Below are positions 1,697-37,739 of a DNA stretch of 64,000 nucleotides, piece by piece. Both the position numbers and the translations under genes were made by a program. The number at the start of each line of letters is the position of its first letter. Position 1 is the stretch's first letter. This stretch comes from Comamonadaceae bacterium (GTDB lineage Bacteria > Pseudomonadota > Gammaproteobacteria > Burkholderiales > Burkholderiaceae_C). The stretch lies in assembly GCA_947372745.1 (NCBI GenBank), contig CANBUY010000002.1, positions 1 to 64,000 on the forward strand, in the 5' to 3' direction. The notes beneath the pieces are model-generated. The model was not told the origin of the DNA. It worked only from the letters and a program-made list of their open reading frames with translations, and did no database searches.

Positions 1697-2419
1697 TCAA
1701 GTTGCGACACGTGTGCCCAGATTTTCGAGCAAGCGTTGCAAGTTACCTAGCGACATCAGGTGTGCGTAGATCAGACCAAGCTCACCACTGGTAAACAGTG
1801 TGTGAACTGTATCTTTGTCCAATTCTTGCAGCTGTTTTTCATCGACCACATACAGGCTTGACAAGCGGAAAGAGGTGCCATCGGCCAGTTCCGCTTGCGC
1901 GTTTGACTCAAACAGAAGATTGTTTTCACTCAAACGCTGACAAAGTTCTTTTGTTCGGAGGGCTTGAAATTGATAATCCTTTAGCAGAGCAATCATGTTG
2001 CGCAGAGTTTCCCCAGGTTGGTCTCCATCAAAAAGAAACTCACCTTCTTCCTGGTTGATTTCAGAGGCATCCTCATCAAAACAAACAACAACCTGACCTT
2101 GACCAACTTCTGAGGGTACAAATGGATAGCGTCGAATGAATGCAGGAATATAACGCCCAAGCCAATGGCCGTCGCTACCCACAAAGAGATTCTCACTTTG
2201 ACGTAATCCTAGTAATGCAATCGGTAAAAAGGAGTTGTCAATGCCCTTTATAAAAACGATCGGAAATTCGCGAGCAGCCTCAACGAACTCAATTGCCACC
2301 AAAGGGACTGAATTGGTCTTGGCAGAAAATGAAAAATTATCAACAGGCTTGATGCGAAATTTTTTATGTAGTTTTGAATCAATGGAAACTACCTTTCCAT
2401 AAAAAATAAGTTCAGCCAT
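1697..2419 (-). CDS. SapC family protein
   Basis: This 240-residue protein matches my memory of the SapC family: an N-terminal part with VPLVAIEFVEAAREFPIVF, then LGLRQSENLFV, WLGRYIPAFIRRYPF and the acidic DxxxSEINQEEGEFLFD stretch. SapC was named from the S-layer locus of Campylobacter fetus, but its biochemical role is not settled. I see no signal peptide or membrane segment, so it is probably cytosolic. The gene converges on the adhesin-like gene, with only 15 bases between the stops, and is divergent from the lytic transglycosylase. Its position among surface-protein genes agrees with a role linked to surface layers, but that is guilt by association. Gene and family are likely, function is open. 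Confidence 0.75.
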   Translation of the reverse strand: MAELIFYGKVVSIDSKLHKKFRIKPVDNFSFSAKTNSVPLVAIEFVEAAREFPIVFIKGIDNSFLPIALLGLRQSENLFVGSDGHWLGRYIPAFIRRYPFVPSEVGQGQVVVCFDEDASEINQEEGEFLFDGDQPGETLRNMIALLKDYQFQALRTKELCQRLSENNLLFESNAQAELADGTSFRLSSLYVVDEKQLQELDKDTVHTLFTSGELGLIYAHLMSLGNLQRLLENLGTRVAT

Positions 2420-6373: not shown

Positions 6374-6458
6374 CAGAAATAGTGCTTGCGGTCACATGCC
6401 GCCTTTTATCATTGTTGACTAAAAAGAACCGGGTATTAAGCCCAAGAGGAGTGTTGTG

Positions 6459-24400: not shown

Positions 24401-27293
24401 TGATAGCGCGGGGCGCCTCACGGCATTTGCCACGCAAGACCCTGATGCCTCTACGGGTGGCGGTGACACGATTACGATTTCAATGGCTGGTTCACCGCTG
24501 AGTAACAACCCGATTTGGGATAGCAACATCGTGGCAGGCGGCGCTGGCAACGATACCGTGCAGATATTCGGTGGCGCACGCAGCCATGATGTGCTTGCGG
24601 GGGACAACTTGGACTATCGCCGATCTGACAGCGCGACGGGCTATAAAGACTTGTTTGCAGAAGTTTTGCAGCCAAGCAATGGTGGCGACGACACCATTCG
24701 GACCGGCTCCGGCTTTAAGCTGATTCTGGGTGGATTGGGTGCAGATCACATTGATACACAAACGCAAGTTGGTGACACCAATCTCATTTTTGGCGATGCG
24801 GGTGCTGTCATGTTTGACCCTAGCGGCAGTGGCAAATTGATGCAATTGGTGAGCACAGCGACCAGTCAGGGCGGCAATGACACACTCAACGTCGGTGCTG
24901 GCAAAGACTACGTCTTTGGCGGCTTTGGCAACGATGCGATAGCGCTGAATGCGGGAGACAGCGTGGTTCGGACCATCTTTGGTGATAACGGTCAGATCGA
25001 CTTTGATTTGATTTCGGGCGCCATGGCCATGCTCCAGAGCACCGGTAGCGACTTGGCTGACGCAACCTCGACCGCAGACTCACTCACTCTGCCTAGCGCT
25101 GGTACCAACTTAGTGATAGGGGGCACTGGCCTGGATACTTTGTCCGGCAGCAGTGGTGTTAACCACGCATTGACCCGGATTCCGGGTAGCGGCTCCATCC
25201 AGAACCCGGAAAGCAGTGGGCGAGTGATCAGCATTATCATGCTTGGGAAAAATGGTGAATTCGGCATCACAGGGCCGATTGGATCAACAGATTACGTTTC
25301 TGTTGGCGCGGGAACCGATACTGGAACTGGAACTGGAACTGGCACAGAAGGCACAACGAACGGCAACAACGGCTCAGCCGTGGGAACCGGTTCCGTGCAA
25401 GAAGACACGACGCTCACCGCCACAGGTCGCCTAGCCTACAAGGCACTAACGGGGGGTTACGCCAATTTTGTGGCCCAGGCCAATCAGGTCGGCAGTTTTG
25501 GCACACTGACCTTGCTGGCCGATGGCAACTGGACCTATACCCTGAGTAAAACTCAAGACAACGTTCAGGGCTTGAAGTCGGGCGATATCCGCACGGATAC
25601 CTTCATTGCAGCGACGACAGACGGTAGCTCCACCACCGTCACGATCAATGTGAGTGGCAAAGACGATGTTGCCGTAATTGGCGGCGTTACTTTGGGTAGC
25701 CTGGTTGAAGACGTAACGTCGCCGTTGCTTATTGCCAACGGCGAACTCACCGTGACCGACCCTGACGCTGGTCAAGCACTCTTTAGCAGCACAGTAACGC
25801 CTATGATAGGTGCACTCGGCACCATGACAATTAGCGACACCGGTACGTGGGAATACCGCATTGCCAATAGCGCCGTGCAATATCTGGGTGCTGGTCAGAG
25901 AAAAGATGAAACCTTCACTGTTGCTAGCTTGGATGGGACAGCCACGCAACTTGTGACGGTGACACTGACTGGCGTAAACGACGCCCCCACGGGCAGCGTG
26001 AGCATCAGCATCAGCGGTGATGGCGTGCTGGCCCAAGGCAAAACGCTGACGGCCAGCAACACCTTGGCCGATGCCGATGGCATCCCGAGCAGCGGCGCAG
26101 GCGCGATCAGCTACCAGTGGTATCGAAATGGCGCGCTGGTAAGTGGCGCAACGGGTGCAAGCTACACGTTGACACAGGCCGACACAGGCGCTGGCATGAG
26201 CGTGGTGGCGAGCTACACCGACCTGCAAGGCACCCCACAAACGGTGACGGGCAGCATCACGGGCACGACAGCCAATGTAAACGACTTGGCTGACATCACT
26301 GGCGACAACATTCAAAATGGCCTGCTAGCTGCAGGTCAGGTGGTTGAGGATGTCGCGGTAAATGTGGAAGGCAACCTTGTTTTGAATGGTTCAATTCAAA
26401 TAGCAGACCTAGATGTGGGTGAGGCTAGATTCAGAACAACGGTCTTGGCTGTTGGTGCTGTCATGGGTGAATTGAGTCTGAGCGCTGATGGGCATTGGGC
26501 TTACAAGGTAAAAAATGCAGCGGTGCAGTCAATCAATGGTGGCGACAAAGCAATAGACACTTTTATTGTCACCAGTATGGATGGATCGGCAAGTCTGATC
26601 GTTAAAGTGACTATCGTAGGCGTCAATGAGACCCCCGTTTTCGTACAAACGCCTACAGCACTCTCCAGTTCAACACAATCGACTGGTAGCGCCTCGTCGT
26701 TCGGTTCATTTGTAGCGAGTAGTTCATCAGGTTTAGAATCAGTCACTCCGATGCAGGCAAGCAGTAGCACAGCCACATTGGGTGAAGATAGCCAGACACA
26801 GAGCGTCCAGCAGCAAATGCCCGGTTCCAGTTTGGCCACGGCAGGTCAGTCTGGTGCCTTCTTCAAAGCTGTTGCGTCCATAGCAGTAGCGGCACCCGCA
26901 TCAATCCCGGCTGCCTCACCGTTTTGGAATTCAAATCTGGTAGATCAGCCTTTGCTTGCATCGGGGAATGTCGAAAATAGCAATAGCGCAGGTGGTGGGT
27001 CTTCGCCGACTACAACTAACCCAGGCAGCGCGTCTTCAAATAATGTTCAGACACCCGCAACGCAGGGGCAATCCGCTCCCGTCGAACAACCTGCCGTTGA
27101 AACCCCGCCGGTTGAACCAAAGGAACCAGCCGAGCCATCAGCCATGACGCCAGCCTTGGGTGCAGCGATGCTTGGACTAACGGGTCTGCAGGGCGGGCGC
27201 ATCTCTTGGGATAAACCCAAAGTTCAACCCCTCAAGCGCAAGGTCGATAAGTTTGGTCGTATGGCGTTGTCCTCACTTAAGCGGGCTGCGTAA
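6459..27293 (+). CDS. Giant LEPR-XLL / DUF4347 / RTX-like / VCBS surface protein (6944 residues)
   Basis: A single uninterrupted frame of 20.8 kb encodes a protein of roughly 0.7 MDa. In order it has: a basic N-terminus with the LEPRFLL motif (about residues 43-49); a DUF4347 domain (about 100-260) with ISHGD and LYGCDVAQG motifs; long Thr/Ser/Ala-rich repeat blocks (about 600-2400); two EF-hand-like loops (about 2755-2790); a Trp/Asp/Pro-containing beta region with direct repeats (about 3000-4150); an RTX-like glycine/aspartate repeat array (about 4200-6230); three VCBS-type modules with an Ig-like module (about 6310-6730); a Ser/Thr/Pro/Gln linker and a hydrophobic-plus-basic tail. By eye I find only three cysteines, as expected for an extracellular protein. 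The ATG at 6459 has GAGGA at 6446-6450, eight bases upstream, better placed than for the GTG at 6456. There is no classical Sec signal peptide. It is the probable substrate of the neighbouring export genes; adhesion or cell-cell contact is the likely role but is inferred. Confidence 0.9.
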   Translation: MNNQQQGKPNVAQRLRHFLRVPALTRKGAIAPPLPRRIIVESLEPRFLLSGEGLVLPPAPPKPALFDTSLQASLLSSAQLVSQIGVTSAPYVFDAVDSAPVSKINEVIFLDPGVKDGQALVRQALANRPDAQAEVVLLDGETDGVQQMTTWLKQHQGLQAVHIISHGDTAAIKLGSAELDAANIDQYQSALTQWQQALAPGADLLLYGCDVAQGKDGAAFVERLAQLTGADVAASTDATGSAALGGDWILEKTTGLVASPSLFVVAPSYDQLLAAVTVAKAGDTSTVISANGAFTAASNLGAQLDANAEFTYTMPLVDLSFSGLIRTNDGRTLGDVLAFKTLTNTTVLDDYLATSSSHTMGGLMDRMGDYLNGMGAYSNLESVVDHSGSAINFSATGQVLTATLTLSREFIQQFGFGEQLKALGLDFQGGQGIPLLADVHFTGVYDFANGTLGVSQLDAQVKAKSSTFSAGMALGVIAATATGTLEFDTGKVEFNAIAASGASVIKLPTSSSFTAADNLFTVKSGSTHAVKTNASFDIAGDLGGTPLATIAGGTPHINVSFGGLSLTSVVTNAADPVITGTASLLAGQTLEVTVAGATYTVVPASDGTWSLALGTASHTGTLDLGSGIAYDVLAQVVKTSGGITVSSATGTIMVNPTINAVSSHTLTPTLSGVARLATGQTLSVAVGGAVYSVIPAASGAWTLNLAVLGTSTKTSGTLLLTTGNNYPVVATVSGGIPTVSAQLTVNTALTATTTTPATTTSTNGITTTGSVTWNALQPAPLTLTSTNFSNLQAFSSLTSTQLVKMLQDLGTYLDLLRDSGKFDAVLPFTDLKLGNALDFSAAINDVIDNQLATTIRSGMTASKAVSPVLGSDVVFDLQVQRPGDERITTLAIAVAKSETTSFTHINQLAMLIGQKITTAVNGWLVWTGSMVDVSESLQGGLTVSGSTKTNEEQTLSVHASSGTYQLNLGGSGTATGDISVLATPVELQNALEAVVGIGNVLVTGRAKHYLVNFVGTKAGTNVAALTVASSSLTAGSLIDVTASEFATGSDGKTWGKINLLQANPGDFSVFRVAPSSGISVQQIAAGDPTTEAVQRLFVIHGGDGSFILKGASDAFATGPISVNGLDATAAQNAILSALNAKSIGTIGGWVSEVSADYAADNGTRVFDIGFGKTGVTFATQGVMTADVTTASVAIVQTTAGDESNNAVQTLTISKTRAGVYALKGTTAAGAAFTTSALSYSASAGDIQTALRSAVGLSTLNVSESSGVFTVTFEKKNYTKMTAANLWTSQVPAQAVLSTQQVAAAAVGATAAKNEIQRLSISNATGGTFVLGTTLDSLLFQTGNVAYGASATDVQASLVSMLQKWNAAVTSDDVAVTKIGNVYDIEFKGRWAAKDVPQLRINSRALISSAGISYAALDNLGFLAAGQDSQVNNVTTFVTLDDMMERFKQAVNVSLSGASFAITPTFDSATKSFLFTVKFAPTQTKAVPLAVNGNIGDLSSLQTDTSLDLITQTLFQGTIGLDFSNLNTFALRASGTYTGTITASASNKTLTGWSSAWLGLYGDAPFNIAFNGEGYDLKLLQSAVDSNTTRDQLVADLQAVFAAQTVTPGGVLARRGFANLGQVVTVGKKTDGQLILTINAPVDQVQLTMSPPSNSILNAMDYLLGFKTTPSYPAPKAVTLPVNGQLTADAHFSLKVDQSSAIAVTITNASTSTNATTSDLILDINAALNGTAVNAYLSGKGFTNLGQVIQATLRNGQIELVTQSAKIASFQMQIDGADTATRELGFTPGQFATTSGAYVFLKDVSLGGNYSAVIHGQSGVTPGTLATAGQATLGMLDITFGKLATDYQGSLSFDLKNGLTGALHDRISLNDLFDSASSQDSLLGLGGTLSTSDTVSSPNVPYQSNGQLLRDVGLSVTVGSAVLEVVVKKSDTTSNTSVADLASDVNAAIHTALVARFTADPYSAFTFVAADSISVAGKTVLKFSAPTTTLTLASTSTQIYTASSGVLLVDLPLTVTLSTGATVDVLVRASSTSANTSLAELVIDVDNTIKLALASARSNTIDTAVLAAIDSLLGATNLVGQSGTGSSAVLSLKSDTVAARAITLKNLAVAGRLLKDDFSTSPVFLNQAGTVGTTPTAALTFSDIGITTPVGITATGLDAATTITVSVTNTAAALAGTGVQASSVVVPSNGLGSLTPLKAIAWSDLQSDMSQLGSLLGDLGGVGAFGELGRALPVLGSSVSDLFDFTTRFAAIDTTLGAQTGIGLNGLQAALGTAFGISASTVTLAYDSTNNALNINVPYRVVIDKTAQIELILNDAALLALLSTADKQTLTDLLGSMSRLKDSDSNALLNLHADMTFHLAMGVDLSSGANQGKLFLYDHVEAGAAGFAGDAGTYATLDAFSASGSGMAFSSIQGIYSLGVTGGTASLTVANTSGVMLDSDAKDGAADGRLYLRPYSAMSSADSTALKHSNFDVIFDGAASVVLPLTLSVSDDLGQLAMTQIDGFINPLPLGKMEINFLNLGDTFAQMGGKTGFALQSMAESSNSRTVISSQVKQAALPERPSTGNGSAVATPEGAPVDSIDESGLANVNPNPYFGSMEGVGASTTPTSTTVDATKLFGAAGGTNASSTGFDVSLIIPDFAYWQTQLTHVLNAAVGSSCEPEKIINGPLIFLLRDPSIIVDTVDKVLGGIQQGLDAFSSVLSLPVIGDQLKEATQFVADLRTNVVGAIKQALDSAIDVYGGLDNALRMSLFNMLTTDTNGNNIIDAGEISANPFLNFLQDYNGDKLVTPDDIVVEYVAGTGQPTMDSRLAAYMGVTQTGITYEKKWKNADGSKMIDPITLVQKVTTETIPVPAVLPGQRTAWVTSGINVPKLDTLGVAMLHDDGTPCYVGEAGNIVLDSSLQKIVDDISGTIDSVAATASDLLANVTTNYGSGFTASATAFAEFVIAKVAAGYDYSHLLKDVFGTGVIAASLSDVAKTFKPSSSAVAADAAVLKYNLDHNLTGTAAKIPKAVLGEFKKAIQTKAETIGAQLALGSSTAIQFRMHLGQTYTPNLNLSFDVGVPGLSLTMNGGIGLTLDWDLYLGFGVDIKDGFYVVTNMPGTAGIGEITTLTTAGVATGTVVNSSDAHIDNLWLVGKPTFTPAVKELQASIDVVLTPSSGNTAASLNAQLFVLNGTLTDNWDGWIKDNDTGIWGSGTDSLGRLTGTQNANYGRTTEMFNGLSGAEGSRTRLHLDFSVDLKDVGLFGISALSGLTNGRLTYSDLRNAKLADLYKVEWDAQAQINLHMGLGVSAGGEGYLPKIIGDFHLTWQDSNKNKYVKQIEQYFTSGYDKLFHAGTPNIWMTDVYLDVGTFFTKFLNPIVSVIQDVTDPIMPVIDALTTPVPGLSDLMGRDYSVIDLASEMSAMFGGVSKVDFIIAVVNLLDVIDSLPTNTAGMLLPVKEALIVSGTKDRKLNLSALPSIPNLPNIDVPITLPYLQMADVNVAKDGFEFGLNMGVGWKDNLATMGVDEGKTSLLKVVQGQMPDLRFDFSLTADAKIPAPYIDVTPFNFTIPGIKNREGTADATFKLNIKAGWPDLRLSDILSGNMAPRFELTLELPDIDFTPNLLPVLKFVMPKLEATVNGTTHTLLGGGEITVDWPNAVQGFVNSADVKTYTLPTASINLGSLPDFLLPLPYVDLTPIDISADLGFAAGSFQLNIKAGWKDLWLSDFLSGNIAPSFDATITANASLNINTAILPVVQVQLPKMTWTMGAKTWTWAAGSTQTIAWPDSLSGFVNTSNVKTINLTGASFDVNLGSISGFLPTIKVEWPDVHWVGIGKEFIWKQTASTDLGWSSIISDSGILSALIDPAKTITIKLPDVWLPSVNLLDLLPDIDWSFSLPGLPSLPSIDISLPSIDVPGQQTISPQQGFADFQKKLKKPGSALKFPILDDTVGSVIGLLMGKPVDLMTFTPPNLEVKVGFRVSFPIYPPLYVGIGGEIKLQASLTLGFDTYGITKFANSHNITDIFDGFYVSDNIVNGVDKPEVTLTAKLYAFAELNAFIVRGGVEGGIKLVGTLDIYDEDKDNKFRASQIIAAVSEDPLDVVEMHLRGSAYISAYVDVFALFDYVRVWEWTFMDVTLFEWEHDPAAKKPILASMDGSNLTLHMGSTIGSIDGESSVDKGAADRKRRSTDDGNESYALTGSGGTVNISATLTNGSTYTKTFSGVNRVKAFTGAGDDLVDASALDRSVLFIAGGGTDILIGGSADDVLIGSDSGTATLIGGGGNDKLIARGGTTHMQGGLGDDTYRFLTGWSIADITDTNGSNILDFTAQVNAVTLDDSVAKAFQGANRVTWTNGSDKIDLVKGGSGSDILDFSGDAANLIVSVTGTNAGWVKGSGSGMTQTSFASTTAQAMKDAGDNAGFGFKFTGFENAIGGQGSDVFRLSAGASLTGSMRGDTTAGLHHDASGNEAANARNILDFSEYITGVVVNEESTSAFGTANATGIIVRGFHDIFGGAGGDRLSGDGRNNLLVGNDGTDLLEGKAAHDLLVADTFVTYKNLTGSQTRPTTLTNVTDYLTLQTVGVGEFGAASRNWIWKGQTLENKSLTTAGAQTLKGGSGNDIIIGSKGGDIINIGGSGEGNDTILADLGKLEIDFNYRTALSATSFGVSGGNDTIYLGSGNNLVLAGNGKDTVYGSDVAGSFNIILADNGTVKFKTAEASTLSGTKLTFATVHGLTHLLDTTDAPVSENGGTGGADVVSLASGSAIVIGGAGNDVISFNASTSTGVNVRFVAGDHASIKTDLHGGITEFFTLDTLANTGGDDIIVIGSKADLATRHLGTNFILGGMGVDTIIVSGAIDAAGVITRGLARSEDVILGDNGKITRTISVATTSTQNRMLKVESTQTTNGQGGNDKIIVANGGKVIIGGVGNDTITAQNGDNLVIGDNGLIDFDASNSGILRQMQSTALDQGGIDTITLENGFKTVIAGFGADIISILASNLGDAIGPITVTGLAGVTGSTDQRRGRSGRYVAGDNALIDFDETGGLTDIVTTDTVTATGDADTIVIGLTGAINNTVDIGTNMVLGGMGADSITVLGVGAIGTSFDTILGDNGEVHRNDNTGKRLTETATGVAYALRDVHSTQIDLGGNDAIAAANGDKVIVGGWGQDVVTIDTASVSTRFIGGDNATLSFDTTGGLTDLVTMDVVSTTGDNDTIVVGHAVATLNTVDIGTNIIAGGMGADTITVLGVGATGTSFDTILGDNGEVHRNDNTGKRLTETATGVAYALRDVHSTQIDLGGNDMISAANGDKVLLGGFGADTLTVRTNSKSIRLETGDNGEITFDTQGGMTDLLTLDAESATGGSDTITIESTAGAADLGLNVVAAGMGSDVILMDGATYDALVTKKLTGGTDTSEDILIGDNGEVHRTTASTATGMKNLMLQVKSIRPDRGGDDLIGAGNGGKVIVGGLGADKITAVDGDKLVFGDNAQVDYDVAAQNGLLRMAQNIELTLGGADTIRLGEGFTVAMAGIGADLIDINASKAGFMTAGYGNVTGFNATPTETATETELRRQTGRFLTGDNAIIRLDTKAGITDFDSIDVISATGGDDTIIVGKLDTPNNLGYQVIYGGMGSDNITVRATSSSEDIIFGDNAQYRRRALSYQPVSFTSMLADKGGDDRIVSGSGYKTVVGGFGNDQINLATVMTVGETTPSNRSLILGDSGVVNFDFSGSGSLKTVESLSFNFGGSDVATVGDGDVTFIGGYGTDTLTVNSNQKAFRAAAGDNARFTYSSSGSTLAAVSDPAGLTGMISLDTTSITGDSDVMRLGPTGSISGEMGMALMIGGMGRDTLRVTGASADQVTLAGDNAEIIRSAGRSGLVTSFFSLLPEQGAGDTLETVSGVTQVAGVDTVTGSYLLVGGQGGDTIRAGSGYGVVFGDSGRATFSAIGKVQFAASVGTAQGGNDLIALGSGSGGVKSDGDMVVIGGYGSDTIDVASVRGNGAFIERTIAGDNASINFDSAGRLTAFATQDPDASTGGGDTITISMAGSPLSNNPIWDSNIVAGGAGNDTVQIFGGARSHDVLAGDNLDYRRSDSATGYKDLFAEVLQPSNGGDDTIRTGSGFKLILGGLGADHIDTQTQVGDTNLIFGDAGAVMFDPSGSGKLMQLVSTATSQGGNDTLNVGAGKDYVFGGFGNDAIALNAGDSVVRTIFGDNGQIDFDLISGAMAMLQSTGSDLADATSTADSLTLPSAGTNLVIGGTGLDTLSGSSGVNHALTRIPGSGSIQNPESSGRVISIIMLGKNGEFGITGPIGSTDYVSVGAGTDTGTGTGTGTEGTTNGNNGSAVGTGSVQEDTTLTATGRLAYKALTGGYANFVAQANQVGSFGTLTLLADGNWTYTLSKTQDNVQGLKSGDIRTDTFIAATTDGSSTTVTINVSGKDDVAVIGGVTLGSLVEDVTSPLLIANGELTVTDPDAGQALFSSTVTPMIGALGTMTISDTGTWEYRIANSAVQYLGAGQRKDETFTVASLDGTATQLVTVTLTGVNDAPTGSVSISISGDGVLAQGKTLTASNTLADADGIPSSGAGAISYQWYRNGALVSGATGASYTLTQADTGAGMSVVASYTDLQGTPQTVTGSITGTTANVNDLADITGDNIQNGLLAAGQVVEDVAVNVEGNLVLNGSIQIADLDVGEARFRTTVLAVGAVMGELSLSADGHWAYKVKNAAVQSINGGDKAIDTFIVTSMDGSASLIVKVTIVGVNETPVFVQTPTALSSSTQSTGSASSFGSFVASSSSGLESVTPMQASSSTATLGEDSQTQSVQQQMPGSSLATAGQSGAFFKAVASIAVAAPASIPAASPFWNSNLVDQPLLASGNVENSNSAGGGSSPTTTNPGSASSNNVQTPATQGQSAPVEQPAVETPPVEPKEPAEPSAMTPALGAAMLGLTGLQGGRISWDKPKVQPLKRKVDKFGRMALSSLKRAA
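6585..6605 (+). other. LEPR-XLL motif of the giant protein
   Basis: These bases encode LEPRFLL (about residues 43-49), preceded by the basic stretch PPLPRRIIVES and followed by SGEGLV. LEPR-XLL is a short N-terminal signature that I know from very large surface proteins of Gram-negative bacteria. Its function is thought to be sorting, but this is not proven. No hydrophobic Sec-type core precedes it, so it may be the export or processing signal itself. Confidence 0.85.
6762..7240 (+). other. DUF4347 domain of the giant protein
   Basis: About residues 102-260 match DUF4347: a strand EVIFLDPGV, a helix, VVLLDGETDG, VHIISHGD (His about 166), LLLYGCDVAQG (Cys about 209) and GGDWILEKTTG. A His-Gly motif followed by a Cys at the end of a strand is the arrangement of caspase/CHAT-like (clan CD) peptidases. 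Whether the domain is catalytic here is inference; in giant proteins it regularly follows the LEPR motif. Confidence 0.75.
9313..10650 (+). repeat. Four diverged repeats of about 110-130 residues inside the giant protein
   Basis: Four consecutive modules share the plan LxV/LxI-x6-GTYxLxxxG, a central ASAxDIQxALxxxxG helix-like stretch and a closing VxxxxxxYxVxFxG strand: starting near 9313 (LSVHASSGTYQL), 9735 (LFVIHGGDGSFIL), 10078 (LTISKTRAGVYAL) and 10400 (LSISNATGGTFVL). I remember this Q-x-A-L repeat from giant proteins of planctomycetes and cyanobacteria; I do not know an assigned function. Confidence 0.65.
11487..12790 (+). repeat. Repeats of the STSxNTSxxDLxxDIN type inside the giant protein
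   Basis: Three modules of roughly 100 residues carry a strand pair followed by a Ser/Thr-rich turn and the helix TSDLILDINAAL (near 11600), SVADLASDVNAAI (near 12265) and SLAELVIDVDNTI (near 12565). Spacing and motif order are the same in all three, so they are homologous units. They are structural modules; no catalytic motif is visible. Confidence 0.6.
14721..14829 (+). other. Paired EF-hand-like calcium loops in the giant protein
   Basis: Two acidic loops follow each other: DTNGNNIIDAGEI from 14721 and DYNGDKLVTPDDI from 14790. The first has Asp1, Asn3, Asn5, Ile8 and Glu12 of a canonical EF-hand loop, the second has the same spacing with Asp12. A pair at this distance resembles a dockerin or EF-hand unit. 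Calcium binding is inferred from the ligands. Confidence 0.65.
17140..17610 (+). repeat. Direct repeat LNIKAGWxDLxLSDxLSGN inside the giant protein
   Basis: Two units, near 17149-17230 and 17530-17610, encode LNIKAGWPDLRLSDILSGN and LNIKAGWKDLWLSDFLSGN, each followed by a PKMxWTMG or PKLEATVNG strand, a WP turn and GFVN. The unit is about 125 residues. The surrounding sequence is rich in Trp, Pro and Asp and unlike the rest of the protein. No function can be assigned. Confidence 0.65.
21699..21818 (+). repeat. Near-identical internal duplication, copy 1
   Basis: This 120-base stretch recurs exactly 450 bases downstream at 22149-22268 with a single visible difference (T at 21788, C at 22238). 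It encodes the LGDNGEVHRNDNTGKR part of the RTX-like unit. Neighbouring units differ much more, so this pair was copied or converted recently. Confidence 0.9.
22149..22268 (+). repeat. Near-identical internal duplication, copy 2
   Basis: Second copy of the 120-base stretch at 21699-21818. The 450-base offset equals one 150-residue repeat unit, so the frame is kept and the repeat number can change by recombination between the copies. Confidence 0.9.
25320..25343 (+). repeat. Short ACTGGA tandem repeat in the giant gene
   Basis: Three ACTGGA units plus ACTGGC encode a Thr-Gly linker (TGTGTGTG) between the RTX-like array and the VCBS modules. A six-base unit keeps the frame if copy number changes. 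Confidence 0.8.
25380..26640 (+). other. VCBS-type modules and an Ig-like module of the giant protein
   Basis: Three VCBS-like modules carry GTLTLLADGNWTYTL, GTMTISDTGTWEYRI and GELSLSADGHWAYKV, each followed by a DTFxxxxxDG strand and VNDAP or VNETP closing motif. Between modules two and three lies an Ig-like SYQWYRNG segment (near 26110-26240). VCBS modules are common in adhesins of Vibrio, Colwellia, Bradyrhizobium and Shewanella. They support a surface or adhesive role. Confidence 0.8.
27130..27290 (+). other. C-terminal hydrophobic-basic tail of the giant protein
   Basis: The last 55 or so residues start with EPAEPSAM, followed by the mildly hydrophobic TPALGAAMLGLTGLQGG and a strongly basic end (KPKVQPLKRKVDKFGR, then SLKRAA). 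This is unlike the acidic RTX and VCBS body. The layout resembles a C-terminal sorting or retention signal, but I know no family for it. Confidence 0.5.
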
Positions 27294-27627: not shown

Positions 27628-29442
27628 ATGACCATGTTATTTGCGGCGCCGTCTGATCTCTGGCAGCGCCTGATCTCTTCAGAGGATGAGCAGGAATTTC
27701 TTGAAACCTGGTTGTCCTGCCTGATTTCTCTGTGTGGACAAGTGGTTCAGGCCACTGTCGTATGGGGTGATGCAGCTAATGTCGGACCTTTTCGTCCGCG
27801 GGTCGACTTGCCCGTTGGTCGTGTGGCTGATCGCTCCATGGCCACGTTGTGTGAACGTGTGCTTGAACTGCGCGTGCCACTGACGCAAACGATACCCCGG
27901 GTATTGCTCGTACATCCAGTAATGCTGGACGCCAATCTTTACGGACTGGTCGCCATTGAGTTTGAAAGTCATATTCCAGCGCATGCATCCGATGTATTGC
28001 GCTGGGGTATGGGGTGGCTGCGTGAGCGTATTTCTGGAAGTGAGGCACATGCGGCCGATGCGCTGCGCGAGCGTTTGTTTGTGATGCTTGACGTGCTGAC
28101 GCATGTGATTGATGCCAGCAAGGCGGTCACTGCAGCGCAGTCTGTGGCCACCGAGTTGGCGCAGCATCTAGGTTGCGAGCGGGTGTCAGTAGGATTCGGT
28201 AAGTTGGATGGAATTCGTTTGTTTGCACTTTCACATTCGGCCGATTTTTCGCGGCGCAATGATTTAACCCAAGCCATCGAGTCGGCCATGAACGAAGCGG
28301 TTGACCAAGGCGAAACCATGTATTCGCTGGCGGGCAACGACAGCGCGGATGAGCAACGGCTGGTTTTGATGCGTGAGCATGACCATTTGCGTCGGGACTT
28401 TGATACAGACGCTATTCTGACCGTTCCGTTTAAGGTAGGTGAGGAAAGTGGCGTCTTCACATTTGAGTGGGCAACGGAGGAAGATGGCGAGAAATGGCGG
28501 GATTTTGCAGCCAGTCTGGTGCCGTTGATGGGACGTGCGTTACTTGATCGCCGCCAGCAAGACCGGTCCTGGCCGAAACGTGCGCATGAGTATTTGCGGC
28601 AAGAGTGGATGAAACTAAATGGGGCACATCAGGGTGCACGTAAATTGGTGGCTCTGCTGGGCATGGGTGGCGTTCTTTTTCTTGCAATGGCTAAAGGTGA
28701 TTTCCTGGTGGCTGCTCACGCGGAATTGGAGGGGGGTATTCGGCGGGTGATTGCGGCTCCGTTTGAGGGTTTTGTCGCGAGCAGCGGTTTTCGTGCCGGG
28801 CATGTTGTCAAGCAGGGTGATGTGCTAGCAACTCTTGATGATCGTGATTTGCGTTTGGAAACCGTACGCTGGGAAAGTCAGCAAACCCAGTATTCCAAAC
28901 AGGCTAACGAAGCACAGGCTCAACATAACCTGGCTCAGTTGCAGATTTCATTGGCACAGACGCGTCAGGCCGAGGCACAGCGAGACTTGTCTGAAACCAT
29001 GCTGGAGCGTTCCCAGATTCGTGCCCCCTTTGCTGGCGTGATCATTTCTGGCGATTTATCGCAGAACTTAGGGGGGGCGGTCAAAAAAGGACAGTCGTTG
29101 TTTGAAATTGCACCACTCGACTCCTACCGTGTGATTCTCAATGTTGACGAAGCCGATATTCCTCACATCAAAGCCGGGCAGCAGGGCGAACTCATGCTGG
29201 CCGCACTAGTTGGCGAGCGGTTCCCCTTTACGGTGACCTTGGTGACCCCAGTCGCGCAGGCCAAAGAGGGTAAAAATGCTTTTCGCGTGGAGGGTTCGCT
29301 TTATGCGACAACGCCACGCTTGCGCCCGGGAATGGAGGGTGTCGCCAAGGTTAATGCTGGCAAAGAGCGCCTAGTCTGGATATGGACACATCGGTTTATC
29401 GATTGGCTGCGACTTCAGTGTTGGGTCTGGCTCGGTGTTTGA
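27628..29442 (+). CDS. HlyD-family membrane-fusion protein with N-terminal GAF-like domains
   Basis: The 604-residue product has a cytosolic N-terminal half, one transmembrane helix (about residues 337-358, LVALLGMGGVLFLAMAKGDF) and a periplasmic adaptor half. The N-terminal half contains two GAF-like parts; the second is clearer, with DVLTHVIDASKAVTAAQSVATEL and CERVSVGFGKLDGIRLFALS. The periplasmic half has a lipoyl-like half motif (GFVASSGFRAGHVVKQGDVLATLDDRDL), a Gln/Ala-rich coiled-coil hairpin, the second lipoyl half (RSQIRAPFAGVIISGDL) and a beta barrel. HlyD proteins bridge an inner-membrane exporter to TolC. Fusion to GAF-like domains is unusual and could let a cytosolic signal or partner control export. 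A second ATG six bases downstream is possible as start. Confidence 0.85.
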   Translation: MTMLFAAPSDLWQRLISSEDEQEFLETWLSCLISLCGQVVQATVVWGDAANVGPFRPRVDLPVGRVADRSMATLCERVLELRVPLTQTIPRVLLVHPVMLDANLYGLVAIEFESHIPAHASDVLRWGMGWLRERISGSEAHAADALRERLFVMLDVLTHVIDASKAVTAAQSVATELAQHLGCERVSVGFGKLDGIRLFALSHSADFSRRNDLTQAIESAMNEAVDQGETMYSLAGNDSADEQRLVLMREHDHLRRDFDTDAILTVPFKVGEESGVFTFEWATEEDGEKWRDFAASLVPLMGRALLDRRQQDRSWPKRAHEYLRQEWMKLNGAHQGARKLVALLGMGGVLFLAMAKGDFLVAAHAELEGGIRRVIAAPFEGFVASSGFRAGHVVKQGDVLATLDDRDLRLETVRWESQQTQYSKQANEAQAQHNLAQLQISLAQTRQAEAQRDLSETMLERSQIRAPFAGVIISGDLSQNLGGAVKKGQSLFEIAPLDSYRVILNVDEADIPHIKAGQQGELMLAALVGERFPFTVTLVTPVAQAKEGKNAFRVEGSLYATTPRLRPGMEGVAKVNAGKERLVWIWTHRFIDWLRLQCWVWLGV

Positions 29443-29454
29443 TTCCCGCGTGAC

Positions 29455-31608
29455 ATGAGCACCAGTCTCTTTTCTCAATCTTGGTATCGGGTAGCTGATG
29501 TGCGACCGCGGCTGCGACGTCAGGCGCAGATCATCCGACAGACCTACCGCGGTGAACGCTGGTATGTGTTGCAGGACCAGGGTACAGGGCGATTCTTGCG
29601 CCTCAACCCCGCAGCTTACCGAATTGTTGCCTTGATGGACGGCAAGCGCAGTTTGAGCAATATCTGGCACCACGAAACCGAGTTGCATGGTGACGAGGCA
29701 CCGACTCAGGACGAGGTGTTGCATTTGTTGTCCCAACTGCATCAGGCCAACGTTCTCATTTCTGACCATCGTCCGGATCTGGGGGAGATGGAAGAACGCC
29801 GAGCGCGAACCCGCACCGCAAAGCTAAAGCAGTATTTCGCCAACCCGCTTTCCATTAAGTTTCCACTGGCAGACCCGGATAAATTGCTTGGTGCAGTAAC
29901 TGCCGGCATATCTTCTGCGGTTTGGTTCTGGATCATGGCGGCTTGGCTGATGCTGGTTTTGTCTGGGTTGGTCGGGGCGTTTTATTATTGGGATGAGTTG
30001 ACTCATGACCTTGCCGCGCATTCGTTTACAGCTCAAAACATGTTGCTCATGGCGGTGGTTTTCCCCGTTCTAAAGGGCATCCATGAACTGGGTCACGCGC
30101 TGGCCATTAAGGCTTGCAGAGGGGCGTGCCGGGAAATCGGGTTGATGTTTTTGGTCTTTGTACCGGTGCCTTACGTCGATGCAAGCCAAGCAACCAGTTT
30201 CCCGAATAAATACTGCAGAATGCTGGTCGGGGCGGCAGGCATGATGATCGAACTTGCCGTGGCATCGCTGGCCCTTTGGATGTGGACTTGGGTTCAACCC
30301 GGACCTGTAAAGGCAATGCTGCATGAAGCGGTGATTCTCGCAGGGTTCACGACCCTGATCTTTAACGCTAATCCCCTCCTGCGATTCGATGGTTATTACA
30401 TTCTGGCTGATTGGTTGGAAATTCCGAATTTGGGTCAGAAATCAAATCAGTTCGTTGGCTATCTCTTACAACGTCATATTTTTGGGGCAGATCAATTGCC
30501 TGCCCCACATCTCACGCCCCGTGAGAGCTTCTGGTTGCCCAGTTTTGCGGTCGCCTCATTTGTCTATCGAATGCTGGTTGCGGTTGGTATTCTTTTACTC
30601 GTATTTGGGCAGTTCTTTTTTATTGGCGTCTTGATGGGGATTTGGGTAGTTTGGAGCATGTTGTTGCAACCGCTGGTCAAAAATTTAAGCTATCTCGCCA
30701 ACTCTCCTGAGTTGGAACGTCATCGACATCGGGCTTGGACCATGGCGGGAGGCTTTGTCAGCATGTTTTTGCTGTTTATTTTTTTCTTTCCTGCGCCTTC
30801 ATGGACAAGTACCGAAGGTGTGATCTGGATGCCTGAAGATGCGCGCCTGCGTGTCATGCATCCATGTTTTGGACGTGAGCTGCTGGTCAAACCGGGTGCG
30901 CAGGTCAAGGCAGGGGCACCACTCCTGTCTTGTTCAGACCCTGAGTTGGACTCCCAGATTACGCAGAGTGAAGGACGGCAGGCTGAATTGGAGGCTCGGT
31001 TTGTCGGCGCAAACAGGGATGATCGGGTGCAGGGTCAGATCGTGGCGGCTGAGCTGAATCATGCTCGACATCGTCTGGCCGATCTGATGACGCGCCGCGA
31101 GTCGATGGTGATGGCCAGCCCGACCGATGGCATTTTTGTCATGAATGGCCCCAGTGATTTTTCAGGTCGCTTTTTGGGGCGCGGAGAGGTGGTGGCTTAC
31201 GTTATTACGCCGGAACGTTTGACCTTGATTTCTGTCGTTTCACAAGGCGATGTTGATTTAGTTCGAAAGCACACCTCTCGGGTTGAATTGAGGGTGGTCG
31301 GTGATGTGTGGCGTGTGATCCAGGCAAGAATCAAGCGTGAGGTACCTGCGGCAACCCAGGATTTGCCCAGCCTGGCACTCACACTTGAAGGCGGGGGGAA
31401 AGTGGGTCTCGACCCTACGGCTAAGTCGGAAGGTGGGGCACGCGCCTTGACACCACTTTTTCAGTTTGAACTGGCGCTAGCGGGCGAGCAATTGCCCAAC
31501 ATGCTGGGGCAACGCGTCTATGTCCGGTTTGTGCATGAACCCGAGCCTTTAGTGAATCAATGGTTCCGCGTCTTGCGCCAGTTGTTTCTCAAGCGCTTTA
31601 CGGTGTAA
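29455..31608 (+). CDS. PqqD-like / M50 site-2-type metalloprotease / HlyD-like fusion
   Basis: This 717-residue protein has three parts. Residues about 15-110 resemble PqqD or RRE domains (GERWYVLQDQGTGRFLRLN, AAYRIVALMDGKRSLSNIW, DEVLHLLSQLHQANVLI), which in other systems bind leader peptides. Residues about 150-440 are polytopic and carry the M50 zinc site HELGH (His210, Glu211, His214) and NANPLLRFDG (Asn304, Pro307, Asp312). The C-terminal part has split lipoyl halves (RELLVKPGAQVKAGAPLL and VMASPTDGIFVM) around a coiled coil. COG1994-type M50 proteins act inside the membrane. The key metal ligands are all present, so it may be active. It starts 12 bases after the GAF-HlyD gene. Leader recognition and cleavage of the giant protein are my inference. 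Confidence 0.85.
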   Translation: MSTSLFSQSWYRVADVRPRLRRQAQIIRQTYRGERWYVLQDQGTGRFLRLNPAAYRIVALMDGKRSLSNIWHHETELHGDEAPTQDEVLHLLSQLHQANVLISDHRPDLGEMEERRARTRTAKLKQYFANPLSIKFPLADPDKLLGAVTAGISSAVWFWIMAAWLMLVLSGLVGAFYYWDELTHDLAAHSFTAQNMLLMAVVFPVLKGIHELGHALAIKACRGACREIGLMFLVFVPVPYVDASQATSFPNKYCRMLVGAAGMMIELAVASLALWMWTWVQPGPVKAMLHEAVILAGFTTLIFNANPLLRFDGYYILADWLEIPNLGQKSNQFVGYLLQRHIFGADQLPAPHLTPRESFWLPSFAVASFVYRMLVAVGILLLVFGQFFFIGVLMGIWVVWSMLLQPLVKNLSYLANSPELERHRHRAWTMAGGFVSMFLLFIFFFPAPSWTSTEGVIWMPEDARLRVMHPCFGRELLVKPGAQVKAGAPLLSCSDPELDSQITQSEGRQAELEARFVGANRDDRVQGQIVAAELNHARHRLADLMTRRESMVMASPTDGIFVMNGPSDFSGRFLGRGEVVAYVITPERLTLISVVSQGDVDLVRKHTSRVELRVVGDVWRVIQARIKREVPAATQDLPSLALTLEGGGKVGLDPTAKSEGGARALTPLFQFELALAGEQLPNMLGQRVYVRFVHEPEPLVNQWFRVLRQLFLKRFTV

Positions 31609-31644: not shown

Positions 31645-33627
31645 GTGTTTGCGCTTTCAATTCTGTCCCAGCCTTATCCTCAACGCGAAGATGCGATTCA
31701 ACCATCATGGCTGGATCAAGTTGCCGAGCGCATTCGGGTGGAACTACTGGTTCGCTTTCGGTTCACCAAATGGCAACTGAATGCCGTGGCGGCCGAGGTC
31801 ATGCGCCAGGAAGCTGTGCTGAAAGCGATGAACGATACCGAAAGAAAGCTGGCGTTTGCCAAAATCTGCCGTGAATTGCGACGACAGGGGTTTATCGAAT
31901 TAAAGATGACTGCTGGCGCCTTGGCGGTGGCGCGTCTGGTTGCTACAGAAACCTTGGGGTTGACCCCTCATCCGGTTCAGATCAAGGGTGCCTATGTGCT
32001 CTTGCAAGGCCAAGTGGCGGAAATGGACACAGGTGAGGGCAAAACATTGACGGCCAGTTTGGCTGCAGCCTGTGCCGCCATGGTTGGGCTGAAGGTTCAT
32101 GTGGTGACGGTCAATGACTATCTGGCTGAACGCGACGCAGCCACACTGACTCCATTTTTTTCAGCTCTTGGATTGACTGTTGGCGTGGTCAAAGAAGGGA
32201 TGTCGCAGAGGGATAAGCAGCAGGCCTATCGTGCTGACATCGTCTATGGCGCTAACAAAATCATTGTATTTGACTACTTGCGCGACAGGGTGGCATTGGG
32301 TGAGCGAATGCGACCTTTTTCCATGGCGGTCGATAAGCTGGCAGGATTGATGCCGCCGGAAATATCGCTTCCCGGCCTTCAATTCGCCATCGTTGACGAG
32401 GCCGACAGCGTTTTCGTCGACGAGGCGCGCACGCCACTGATCATTTCTGAGGAAAGCCGCGATCCTGAAATGGAGGCCTACTACCAGCAAGCCATCAAGT
32501 TCGCTTTGATTCTGAAGCAGGAGGATGACTACGAGTTGCAGGAGCGTGGTCGCTGGCCGCGTCTGACGCAGGCAGGTCGGGCAAATCTTCAGCAGATGGC
32601 TGAAAACTTGTCTGGCCTATGGCAAGGTGAGAAACGCAGAGAAGAAGCCATTATTCAGGCCTTAGTGGCTTTGCACGGATTCAAGCGTGACGTTGACTAT
32701 ATTGTTCGTGAGGGCAAAGTCATGATTGTTGACGAAAATACGGGTCGGGTGATGCCGGATCGCTCTTGGGAGCGCGGTTTGCAGCAACTCATGGAGATTA
32801 AGGAAGGGTTGGAGCCGACCCCGATGAAGGAAACGCTGGCCCGACTTTCATATCAAATTTTTTTCCGCCGCTACCTCAATTTGTGCGGAATGACCGGCAC
32901 CTGCCGCGAGGTTAAGGGTGAACTTGGCGAGGTGTATGGTTTGGGCGTTGTGCGCGTGCTGCCCCACAAGCCCTCAAAACGGCGGCACCTGCCGACCCTT
33001 ATTTTTTCCAGTGCGTCGCAGCGCTGGAAAGCGGTAGCGGGAGATATTGATCGGCGGCATGTTGATGGCCAACCGGTCTTGGTGGGGACGCGCTCAATTT
33101 TGGCATCAGAGCATTTAAGCGCATTATTGAAGGAGCGTGGCATCGCCCATCAAGTGCTGAATGCCAAACAGGATGGCGATGAAGCTACGATTATCTCGGG
33201 TGCTGGCGAGTTGGGTTGCGTGACCATAGCTACCAATATGGCTGGACGCGGAACCGACATCAAGTTGGGTCCTGGTGTCGTTGACAAAGGTGGCTTGCAT
33301 GTGATTTTGACCGAGGGTCATGACAATCGACGGGTTGATCGTCAGCTTGCTGGGCGTAGTGCCCGCCAAGGCGATCCCGGAAGTTGGCAGGAAATCCTCT
33401 CCCTTGAAGATGAATTGATGGCGAATTACCCATCATGGATGATGCTAAGTCTCGTCTCTGTGCTCGCACGTAGCGAGAATGCTGGACCTGTGCGCTTCAT
33501 GTGCCTAAACCTGTATCGGTTGGCCCAAAAGTTGATCTCCGACAAACACCGTCGGGTCCGTAGCCAATTACTTAAAACTGAATATCAAAATCGGCGTACC
33601 TTGTCGTTTAGTGGAACTACAGAATGA
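31645..33627 (+). CDS. Short SecA-like translocase ATPase
   Basis: The 660-residue product shows the SecA motor motifs: GEGKT (Walker A, residues about 130-134), TVNDYLAERDA, DEAD within FAIVDEADSVFVDEARTPL (about 251-254), GMTGT, ATNMAGRGTDIKLG and GRSARQGDPGS. Housekeeping SecA has about 900 residues; this one lacks the long C-terminal wing and the CxCxSG-type zinc tail, and its substrate cross-linking part is divergent. It starts at a GTG, 36 bases after the M50 fusion, and overlaps the next gene by an ATGA. SecA2-like paralogues export dedicated substrates in other bacteria. Here it is the only visible ATPase of the cluster, so it probably powers export of the giant protein, with SecYEG or with the M50 fusion. 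The family call is sure, the role is inferred. Confidence 0.9.
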   Translation: MFALSILSQPYPQREDAIQPSWLDQVAERIRVELLVRFRFTKWQLNAVAAEVMRQEAVLKAMNDTERKLAFAKICRELRRQGFIELKMTAGALAVARLVATETLGLTPHPVQIKGAYVLLQGQVAEMDTGEGKTLTASLAAACAAMVGLKVHVVTVNDYLAERDAATLTPFFSALGLTVGVVKEGMSQRDKQQAYRADIVYGANKIIVFDYLRDRVALGERMRPFSMAVDKLAGLMPPEISLPGLQFAIVDEADSVFVDEARTPLIISEESRDPEMEAYYQQAIKFALILKQEDDYELQERGRWPRLTQAGRANLQQMAENLSGLWQGEKRREEAIIQALVALHGFKRDVDYIVREGKVMIVDENTGRVMPDRSWERGLQQLMEIKEGLEPTPMKETLARLSYQIFFRRYLNLCGMTGTCREVKGELGEVYGLGVVRVLPHKPSKRRHLPTLIFSSASQRWKAVAGDIDRRHVDGQPVLVGTRSILASEHLSALLKERGIAHQVLNAKQDGDEATIISGAGELGCVTIATNMAGRGTDIKLGPGVVDKGGLHVILTEGHDNRRVDRQLAGRSARQGDPGSWQEILSLEDELMANYPSWMMLSLVSVLARSENAGPVRFMCLNLYRLAQKLISDKHRRVRSQLLKTEYQNRRTLSFSGTTE

Positions 33628-34418
33628 AATACAAAACGAAACTTACCACTCTTTTTAGCCAGCTCTCCCGTTGCGTGGGCATGTCATTGGGAGGGGCCGT
33701 TTTGCTTGCAGGCTTGTCCCCCAGTCACGTTTGTGCGCAAACTGGCGTACCCAAGGTAAGCTCAAAACTGGAAAGCAGCATTGTTTGCGTCATTGAGCCG
33801 TCTCTTGAAATCAATTTGGGTATGCCAGTAGATGGCATGTTGGAGATGGTTAAGGCGGATCGGGGTGATGTGGTGAACAAAGGGCAGTTGCTGGCCCGAC
33901 TTTTCTCGGGCGTAGAAACGGTGATGGTTGAACACCAACTCGAAAAAGCTTCGTTTGGCGAACGCAAACTCTTGCGAAATAAAGAGATGGAAGAAAAAAA
34001 ATTAATTTCGAGCCAGGAACTGGATGAAATTACTACTGAGCAAAAGCTGGCCGAACACGAACTGAGGGAGCGACAAGAGCAGCTCAAATTACGCAGTTTG
34101 TTCAGTCCAATCCGGGGTGTGGTCGTGGATCGATTCAAGAGTCAAGGCGACTTGGTCAAGCAGGAAAAAATCTTCCGCATCGCCCAATTAGACCCGTTAC
34201 ATATAGAAACAGTGGTTCCGGCCAGTTTTTTTGGAAAAATGAGTCTGGGTCAACAGTTTGAGGTAAGACCTCAAATTTCAAACACCGCCACGAAGGCCCG
34301 AGTTAGTGCTATGGACCGCGTGATTGATTCAGCCAGTAACACATTCAGGGTGCGCTTGTTGCTTTCGAACCCGCGATTCGAAATTCCATCTGGACAAAGA
34401 TGCGCCATCCAGTTTTAA
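33624..34418 (+). CDS. Periplasmic adaptor (HlyD/RND membrane-fusion type), small
   Basis: This 264-residue protein begins inside the stop of the SecA-like gene (ATGA overlap), so translation is coupled. An N-terminal hydrophobic segment ending in CAQT suggests a signal peptide. A lipoyl half (GMLEMVKADRGDVVNKGQLLARL) leads into a short Glu/Lys-rich coiled coil (LEKASFGERKLLRNKEMEEK and onward) and the second half (RSLFSPIRGVVVDRF), followed by a beta barrel. It is shorter than usual adaptors and has no membrane anchor visible beyond the N-terminus. With the GAF-HlyD and M50-HlyD proteins this cluster encodes three lipoyl-type adaptors, which is unusual and suggests a layered periplasmic conduit to the TolC-like channel. 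Confidence 0.85.
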   Translation: MKYKTKLTTLFSQLSRCVGMSLGGAVLLAGLSPSHVCAQTGVPKVSSKLESSIVCVIEPSLEINLGMPVDGMLEMVKADRGDVVNKGQLLARLFSGVETVMVEHQLEKASFGERKLLRNKEMEEKKLISSQELDEITTEQKLAEHELRERQEQLKLRSLFSPIRGVVVDRFKSQGDLVKQEKIFRIAQLDPLHIETVVPASFFGKMSLGQQFEVRPQISNTATKARVSAMDRVIDSASNTFRVRLLLSNPRFEIPSGQRCAIQF

Positions 34419-35060: not shown

Positions 35061-35134
35061 TCGGGGTTCCTTTGGGGGTGCGTTTATGGGTTGAATAACC
35101 CATGATGTTGAGCTATTTTCTCCTGACGCATGAT

Positions 35135-35150
35135 AGTTGCATTCACAACT
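35135..35150. promoter_or_regulatory. Putative MarR operator, site 1 of the monooxygenase promoter
   Basis: AGTTGCATTCACAACT is an imperfect inverted repeat with arms of seven and a TT centre (five of seven pairs match). It is 58 bases from the centre of a better second site and lies between the divergent MarR and monooxygenase genes. Confidence 0.6.
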
Positions 35151-35192
35151 AGTGAAAACCCTAATCGACTGGCGTTGATAGTTGGGTATATT

Positions 35193-35208
35193 AGTTGCGT
35201 TCGCAACT
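35193..35208. promoter_or_regulatory. Putative MarR operator, site 2 of the monooxygenase promoter
   Basis: AGTTGCGTTCGCAACT has perfect seven-base arms around TT and lies 24 bases before the monooxygenase ATG. The same arms occur at 42792-42807 before the TRAP transporter, so it is likely the binding site of the MarR protein. Confidence 0.7.
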
Positions 35209-35231
35209 GTTATTTTGATTTAAGAGAAGTC

Positions 35232-36923: not shown

Positions 36924-36936
36924 TCAGGAGACCCCC

Positions 36937-37131
36937 ATGACTGCAAACAATAACGCGCTGACCATTTCTGGCCTGGAAACTGTGTACGACACGCTGGCCA
37001 CGGCCATAGACCAGGCGGGCCAGGACAAGGCCGAGCTTTTTCTTGTCAAGCTGGCGCTGCTCAACGCCCAGGCACTCGGCAGTGCAGAGGTCTTCACGGC
37101 CCAAATTCAGGCCGCTTTGCGCGATCTGTAA
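36937..37131 (+). CDS. DUF2783 family small protein
   Basis: This 64-residue protein (YDTLATAIDQAG, AELFLVKLALLNAQALGS, IQAAL) matches the DUF2783 pattern of two or three short helices. The family is often encoded next to FAD monooxygenases, as here, 13 bases after the monooxygenase stop with AGGAG in between. The function is unknown; a subunit or accessory role for the hydroxylase is plausible. Confidence 0.75.
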   Translation: MTANNNALTISGLETVYDTLATAIDQAGQDKAELFLVKLALLNAQALGSAEVFTAQIQAALRDL

Positions 37132-37169
37132 AGCTAAGTAATATTGAAACTTATTTCAGGAGAATGAAA

Positions 37170-37709: not shown

Positions 37710-37739
37710 CTGCACCCGTCAACAATAAATATCACCACC

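Follow-up and report, generated by a model that had tools for sequence, protein, structure and literature searches.

The window analysed here, a 64,000-nucleotide stretch of contig CANBUY010000002.1 from a Comamonadaceae bacterium, encodes a presumed giant exoprotein of 6945 amino acids with a LEPR-XLL tag near its N-terminus, and it raises the question of what reads such a tag and how the protein that carries it leaves the cell. LEPR-XLL and the planctomycete motif ExLExRxLL are found on very large proteins, and no reader of either is known. A candidate reader can now be named: the 717-amino-acid product of an open reading frame (ORF) at 29455..31608 on the + strand (ATG to stop), predicted to join a RiPP recognition element (RRE; RiPPs are ribosomally synthesized and post-translationally modified peptides), an M50-type site-2 protease (S2P) core and an HlyD-type membrane fusion part in one chain. 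We put the probability at roughly two in three that this protein sits in the inner membrane as the adaptor of an export system dedicated to giant proteins, whose leader it reads and cuts. The literature consulted, which covers few subscription journals and many papers only in part, mentions LEPR-XLL proteins in passing and describes no RRE-S2P-HlyD protein and no link of one to the tag. The accessible parts of papers on LEPR-XLL and ExLExRxLL tags likewise describe no reading machinery.

The earlier note on this DNA had recognized PqqD-like, M50 and HlyD parts in the ORF, and profile scores and predicted structure bear this out. PF05402 (PqqD) matches residues 37-101 with 28.4 bits (cut-off 23.4). 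Peptidase_M50 (PF02163; 21.5 bits, cut-off 27.2) and HlyD_3 (15 bits, cut-off 22.2) both fail, so these two assignments were settled by structure comparison. A full-length AlphaFold2 (AF2) model built on a 32-sequence alignment (mean pLDDT 83.9, pTM 0.62) was compared with solved folds by VIA-align, and residues 16-103 resemble the lasso B1-leader complex 6jx3 (Z 10.1, root-mean-square deviation (rmsd) 2.7, 84 residues aligned). The N-terminal 110 residues modelled alone (pLDDT 89.1), where the same note had placed an RRE, match 6jx3 (Z 9.7, rmsd 2.7), the TbiB1-type RRE with leader in 5v1u and 5v1v (Z 9.4 and 9.3) and PqqD 5sxy (Z 9.1). The idea in the note thus withstands its own first test, which a model lacking an RRE fold would have failed. 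Slightly above these RREs in Z (10-11) stand the C-terminal domains of GdmN and NovN and one domain of Rv2067c, and Foldseek gives a best E of about 2e-3 for the domain model. Residues 9-103 (29479..29763, +) are thus predicted, from PF05402, the AF2 model and the structure matches, to form a three-strand winged-helix RRE fold, with strands at 24-31, 34-41 and 47-50 and helices at 52-59, 67-81 and 85-97. A search of the full sequence against solved structures returned one match at chance level, Foldseek against viral structures gave nothing useful, and phage records gave no match. The one reading frame translated from the opposite strand of 29455-31608 contains many stops.

The membrane protease part (residues 154-444; 29914..30786, +) was delimited by AF2 helices, loop charges and a match of residues 191-322 to RseP 7w6y (Z 10.2, rmsd 3.2, 130 residues aligned). 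Seven long AF2 helices were taken as transmembrane helices, and the charges of their loops, from which orientation was read, fit an N-in, C-out topology; the RRE would thus lie on the cytosolic side and the adaptor in the periplasm. The zinc motifs, which had been called complete, are indeed so: HELGH lies at residues 210-214 (30082..30096, +) and NANPLLRFDG, the NPxxxxDG motif with the third zinc ligand, at residues 304-313 (30364..30393, +). W10, D41, H210, E211, H214, N304, N306, P307 and D312 are invariant across the 32 aligned sequences. The core therefore has the complete S2P motif set of HExxH and NPxxxxDG, from which proteolysis is predicted. Two relatives pass the PF02163 cut-off (32.7 and 29.2 bits; both of class B, as defined below), and membership in M50 follows from these scores together with the intact motifs and the fold match. 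Residues 445-700 (30787..31554, +) resemble MacA, MexA and AcrA (Z 12-14, rmsd about 5-9) and are modelled as an HlyD/RND membrane fusion part with a split lipoyl domain, an alpha-hairpin and a beta-barrel. The split lipoyl halves listed in the note are present. In the AF2 model they are two half-motifs around an alpha-hairpin (496-549), an arrangement that is normal for membrane fusion proteins, and the idea that they are unusual is rejected. The three-domain architecture recurs at full length in dozens of genomes with 28-57% identity and is therefore beyond chance. Relatives on plasmids are annotated variously as 'site-2 protease family protein', 'PqqD family peptide modification chaperone', 'HlyD family efflux transporter' and 'biotin/lipoyl-binding protein'.

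The giant protein (6456..27293, +), the presumed substrate, carries DUF4347 and RTX-like and VCBS repeats in addition to the tag VESLEPRFLLSGE at residues 41-53 (6576..6614, +). NF012209 (LEPR-XLL) matches its residues 40-61 with 25.0 bits (cut-off 17). Among 299 genomes from the window's phylum, 86 encode homologues of the protease (E <= 1e-10) and 39 match NF012209, and 38 of these 39 also encode the protease (p 6e-23). The 48 protease genomes without NF012209 first looked like counter-examples. Twenty stretches were inspected, mostly around proteases of NF012209-negative genomes, and a large ORF with a variant tag was visible in 8 of the 20 (LEPRFMFDGA, LEQRIAFDAA, LEQRMMFDAA, LEPRMMFDGA, LEARMMFDGA, LEPRVMFDGA, LERRIAFDAA and LEPRLLFDGA), with none seen within the other stretches. 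NF012209 was therefore rejected as the sole tag model, because many protease genomes carry the variant LExRx[ML]FD[GA]A instead. A model of this variant, A2, was built from 15 tags of 13 genomes in the same 299-genome set and matches 69 of the 299. With both models combined, 81 genomes have tag and protease, 2 the tag only, 5 the protease only and 211 neither (p 3e-64), a count that is partly circular for the variant because its seeds came from 13 of the genomes counted. Expressed otherwise, the protease occurs in 81/83 LExR-tagged genomes versus 5/216 untagged ones; all Fisher values given here overstate independence because the genomes are related. The protease-only genomes are G122, G129, G177, G186 and G203, of which G186 nonetheless has a LEPRLLFSAT-tagged giant beside its cassette.

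The pairing of tag and protease is repeated, more weakly, in a second phylum. In 198 genomes around a Desulfomicrobium metagenome-assembled genome (MAG), the same models and thresholds find the protease in 13 genomes, NF012209 in 6 and A2 in 2, with the protease in 6/8 tagged versus 7/190 untagged genomes (p 6e-7). The seven protease-only genomes were inspected as eight loci, in which a regular expression showed no tag; two loci of G458, a genome with both tag and protease, were inspected alongside. Four of the seven (G357, G371, G433 and G474) have weak partial protease matches (E 2e-11 to 7e-22) that resemble another family. In G461 and G445, HlyD-type genes adjoin the protease, and a large ORF of G461 runs past the end of the stretch. 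A set of 14 genomes was drawn around an Omnitrophota MAG; tag and protease occur together in G309, and 12 of the 14 have neither by NF012209 and P0001.

Linkage points in the same direction. Among the protease places listed, 150 in 82 genomes were considered, and 61 of them share a contig with a listed tag; 60 of the 61 lie within 60 kb of it and 48 within 20 kb, in 47 genomes. At the one place that is farther away (G006:C1:2801475), another tag, LEDRILLSAE, lies next to the protease. Sixty-eight tags were collected with a filter that imposed [LM]E.R..[SDN] and left positions -3 and -2 free; one, from L092, was dropped for an apparent wrong frame. The tags fall into two classes. Class A (50 distinct tags) is hydrophobic at -3 in 50/50 (A, C and Y counted) and has E or D at -2 in 50/50, followed by [LM]E, P at +2 in 38/50, R, and then mostly LLS[AG][DE]. 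Class B (n=17) reads LExRx[LMA][FLY]D[AG][AT], and its -2 position is not acidic in 16. The class A pattern plus the next two residues occurs a single time in 314,820 background residues of large ORFs. In a tree of 62 proteases, the 27 linked to class A tags and the 14 linked to class B tags are fully separated (split support 1.0); L056, which has Asp at +7 as in class B, was labelled A for its acidic -2 and SecA cassette, one of the labels was assigned from the cassette, and the L055 tag, IEPRLLLSAD, was read by eye at a later stage. G006 and G143 hold both classes, with each protease near its own type of tag. The RRE tryptophans W10, W36 and W71 are characteristic of class A, and the zinc motifs are intact in both classes: H210, E211 and H214 are kept in 27/27 class A and 14/14 class B proteins, P307 and D312 in 41/41 labelled proteins and N306 in 37/41. 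Co-occurrence, gene linkage and clade-specific tag classes thus support the suggestion, made from the letters of the window, that the LEPR giant is the partner of the protease.

The nearest NCBIfam model to the window protein is that of the daptide intramembrane metalloprotease, NF041824, whose N-terminus covers the RRE too; the match fails with 136 bits (cut-off 300), and across the seven proteins scanned the scores are 136-174 bits. As described in the accessible part of the source, the daptide class was found via RREs fused to a site-2 protease, its precursors share the motif ELExMEAP, modification, which acts through the MpaB RRE, was lost on the substitutions L(-7)A and M(-4)A, and MpaP, an intramembrane peptidase that depends on an RRE, is said to remove the leader (PMC10036551). 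Like MpaP, the window protein combines a predicted RRE at the N-terminus with an intramembrane site-2 protease in one chain, and its partner has an N-terminal motif of the same spacing (ELExMEAP versus PhiExLEPR); unlike MpaP, it has an adaptor fused at its C-terminus, and its partner is a giant protein rather than a short peptide. Placed side by side, L(-7), E(-6), x, M(-4), E(-3), A(-2), P(-1) stand against Phi, E, x, L, E, P, R. At the level of motif, the core of class A tags resembles both the daptide ELExMEAP and the planctomycete ExLExRxLL. To the extent that the excerpts go, the daptide fusion and leader motif support leader reading and cutting here (PMC10036551), and a strict analogy predicts a cut after LEPR, which in the window giant would fall at LEPR|FLLSGE. 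M50 enzymes have also been tied to the removal of epipeptide leaders, and the available text of one paper holds that EpeP may both cleave and export (PMC10885120). The epipeptide proteases EpeP, YydH and LiaK (NF058609) are comparable in this respect, but the window protein scores 32 bits against a cut-off of 225. To our knowledge, these epipeptide proteases have no RRE and no adaptor fusion.

The same motif on very large proteins links the LEPR-XLL family to planctomycete PF07595. The window giant fails PF07595 (15.8 bits, cut-off 25.5), which is passed by 1 of 10 scanned relatives of it (L093, 27.1 bits). In the part of the planctomycete paper that is accessible, the motif RRLxxExLExRxLLA is called a putative novel export signal with no machinery named, and 8 of the 10 longest T. 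immobilis proteins carry the form it takes in that species (PMC8567305). No planctomycete, judged by record title, is present among the best 80 of 588 relatives of the protease in named genomes, although no search was aimed at planctomycete genomes.

The candidate reader lies in a cassette of genes on the + strand in the order AMIN-TolC, giant, GAF-HlyD, RRE-protease-adaptor, SecA-like and HlyD, separated by 82, 334, 12, 36 and -4 bases. The AMIN-TolC family outer membrane protein (3788..6373), the probable exit duct, adjoins the giant also in L085, L088, L090, L091, L093, L095 and L097. Upstream of the protease gene, a GAF domain is fused to an HlyD adaptor (27628..29442, 604 amino acids), and downstream lie a SecA-like ATPase with DEAD, preprotein cross-linking and P-loop domains (31645..33627, 660 amino acids) and an HlyD/RND-type adaptor (33624..34418, 264 amino acids). 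The 80 best-matching of 588 relatives from named genomes span, by record title, Beta-, Gamma-, Alpha- and Deltaproteobacteria, Omnitrophota, Nitrospiraceae and Rokubacteria. In these 80 loci, at some of which contig ends hide neighbours, the protease shares its stretch with GAF-HlyD in 77 cases, the SecA-like gene in 74, HlyD in 63, a SapC family gene in 17 and an ABC-like ORF in 7. Of 45 named genomes with the cassette, 38 score above the NF012209 cut-off. Some genomes belong to both the named and the unnamed set (for example, L180 is the contig of G105 and L183 that of G297). A class A cassette is present in Zoogloea ramigera (L121), and a class B one in Cupriavidus metallidurans CH34, whose giant has the tag LEPRLLYDAA. 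In the class B loci that were scanned, the order is OEP, HlyD, HlyD, protease. Such a class B cassette is present on E. coli plasmids (L290, 1869-21620) with a 4460-amino-acid Ig-like protein starting LESRQLFDGA, and its protease gene is found in 24 of 5426 complete E. coli genomes.

From these observations we infer tag binding, cleavage at a particular site, an energy source and a route. The cytosolic RRE would bind the N-terminal LEPR tag of the 6945-amino-acid protein as RREs bind RiPP leaders, and the S2P core would then cut at LEPR or directly after it. The adaptor part, together with GAF-HlyD and the small HlyD protein, would form the connection between the inner membrane and the TolC-like duct. 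In cassettes of class A, to which that of the window belongs, the SecA-like ATPase would probably push the chain through, in the role that the ABC transporter has in type I secretion.

Several observations weigh against this reading. The tag region is weakly hydrophobic, with a median maximum of 1.0 on the Kyte-Doolittle scale (15-residue window) and 0/50 at 2.0 or above, and the tag is thus unlike classical S2P substrates. The daptide alanine tests concerned the RRE of MpaB and not that of the protease. Tags without a protease match occur in G189 and G212, in G438 and G491 of the second phylum and, on a short frame, in G346 of the Omnitrophota set, and NF012209 has no match in 7 of the 45 named cassette genomes. 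No listed tag is on the contig of 89 of the 150 listed protease places, many of these contigs being short. The PqqD Pfam model at E 0.05 has no match in the two class B proteases scanned, so the class B RRE is assigned from alignment. Separately, LEPR was considered as a classical Sec signal peptide and rejected, since 0/50 class A and 0/17 class B N-termini reach 2.0, in a comparison with a weak control (the TolC, SLT and HlyD N-termini of the cassette reach only 1.45, 1.73 and 1.95).

The weak hydrophobicity of the tag also fits the alternative that survives best, in which the RRE docks the tag for export and leaves it uncut while the S2P core acts on another membrane protein, such as GAF-HlyD, or is structural. 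The conserved LLSAD or LLSGE after LEPR could suffice for such docking. However, H210, E211, H214, P307 and D312 are kept in all 41 labelled proteins of both clades, which is unlikely for a scaffold, and the daptide relative is held, in the excerpts of its description, to remove the leader (PMC10036551). An uncut tag is judged unlikely, at something under one chance in five.

The energy source is the least secure step of the proposed route. DTGEGKT, VDEAD and the preprotein cross-linking domain are all retained in the SecA-like protein, yet it scores 540 bits against cut-offs of 800-814 for full-length SecA, and its alignment to the SecA structure 7xha ends at residue 599 of 778, the C-terminal part being missing. 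Full SecA (1112 bits) is encoded on another contig of the same genome. No ABC transporter is present among the scanned window genes, which makes the SecA-like ATPase the likeliest class A motor; it probably drives class A export. A SecA gene is near 25/27 class A proteases and 0/14 class B proteases. A SecA motor is thus not general, a further point against the proposed route as a whole, and class B must use some other motor than the SecA-like protein. These facts give some weight to a scheme of maturation only, in which the tag is read and cut by the protease-adaptor, transport is left to SecYEG with housekeeping SecA or to another exporter, and the HlyD parts and the SecA-like protein serve elsewhere: class B cassettes lack a SecA of their own, and the genome has a full-length one. 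The fusion of protease and adaptor, the two further adaptors and the TolC-type protein point instead to a conduit across the envelope, and the tag region has no strongly hydrophobic core; this scheme is accordingly regarded as less likely again than an uncut tag. That the cassette makes a small RiPP, with the LEPR giants as chance neighbours or users of the same leader code, is very improbable, for although RRE-S2P fusions are known from daptides and the best NCBIfam model is a daptide protease, the scanned window neighbours are export and then catabolic genes with no recognised RiPP modification enzyme, and the statistical partner across genomes is a tagged, mostly very large protein.

An RRE-S2P-adaptor that reads and cuts the leader of a giant protein would differ from the systems it most resembles. 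With type I secretion the cassette shares the HlyD adaptors, the TolC-family duct and their place next to giant RTX/VCBS proteins, but here there is no consistently linked ABC transporter, though an unlinked one may serve (a crude regular expression finds no ABC-like ORF in 73 of the 80 named loci, in stretches around the protease, and one in 7), the tag is N-terminal and the ATPase is SecA-like. Accessory SecA2 systems have a second SecA beside giant adhesins. The window also has a second SecA next to a giant protein; unlike those, the cassette SecA falls under the four SecA2 cut-offs matched, lacks the C-terminal part and sits with HlyD and TolC. The parts are already known, and the unit is possibly a new kind of export system. 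A broader proposal is more tentative, and we hold it to be somewhat doubtful: that the RRE-S2P-adaptor defines a new one-step export class reading and cutting an 'LExR' leader, with a SecA-derived motor replacing the ABC transporter in one branch and a code shared by daptides, proteobacterial giants and planctomycete ExLExRxLL proteins. If leader reading and cutting is true of these cassettes, the RiPP leader logic of RRE and S2P has been adopted for secreting proteins that rank among the largest in bacteria, and a TolC-type duct may be fed by a motor of the SecA type. A search rule also follows, in that each of the two, an RRE-S2P-HlyD gene and a tagged giant protein, predicts the other.

Some features of the cassette and its surroundings were recorded in addition. 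The GAF-HlyD protein places a sensor-like domain on a periplasmic adaptor and is conserved along with the cassette, and the N-terminal AMIN domain of the TolC-family protein is unusual in an exit duct. Upstream of the cassette, on the - strand, lies a gene for an accessory SapC family protein (PF07277, 239 bits; 1697..2419), and a SapC-family gene is also found beside a calcium-binding giant on an Alisedimentitalea plasmid. Downstream of the cassette, on the same strand, genes of an aromatic catabolism type occupy 35130-39056 (FAD monooxygenase, glyoxalase/dioxygenase-like and fumarylacetoacetase). Giants of SecA cassettes carry a short C-terminal [IVL]xW motif, which is GRISW in the window (27195..27209, +, about 30 residues from the end) and GRIQW, LIDW or VNW elsewhere. 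Twenty-nine of 38 ORFs of at least 1000 amino acids upstream of GAF-HlyD, from L047-L193, were used for a count (L049 and L180 being identical, and the window giant outside the set), and the motif is present in 21 of the 29 stretches of the last 70 residues versus 2.1 expected, a post hoc figure as the motif was noticed in the same data. The C-terminal [IVL]xW is possibly a second signal.

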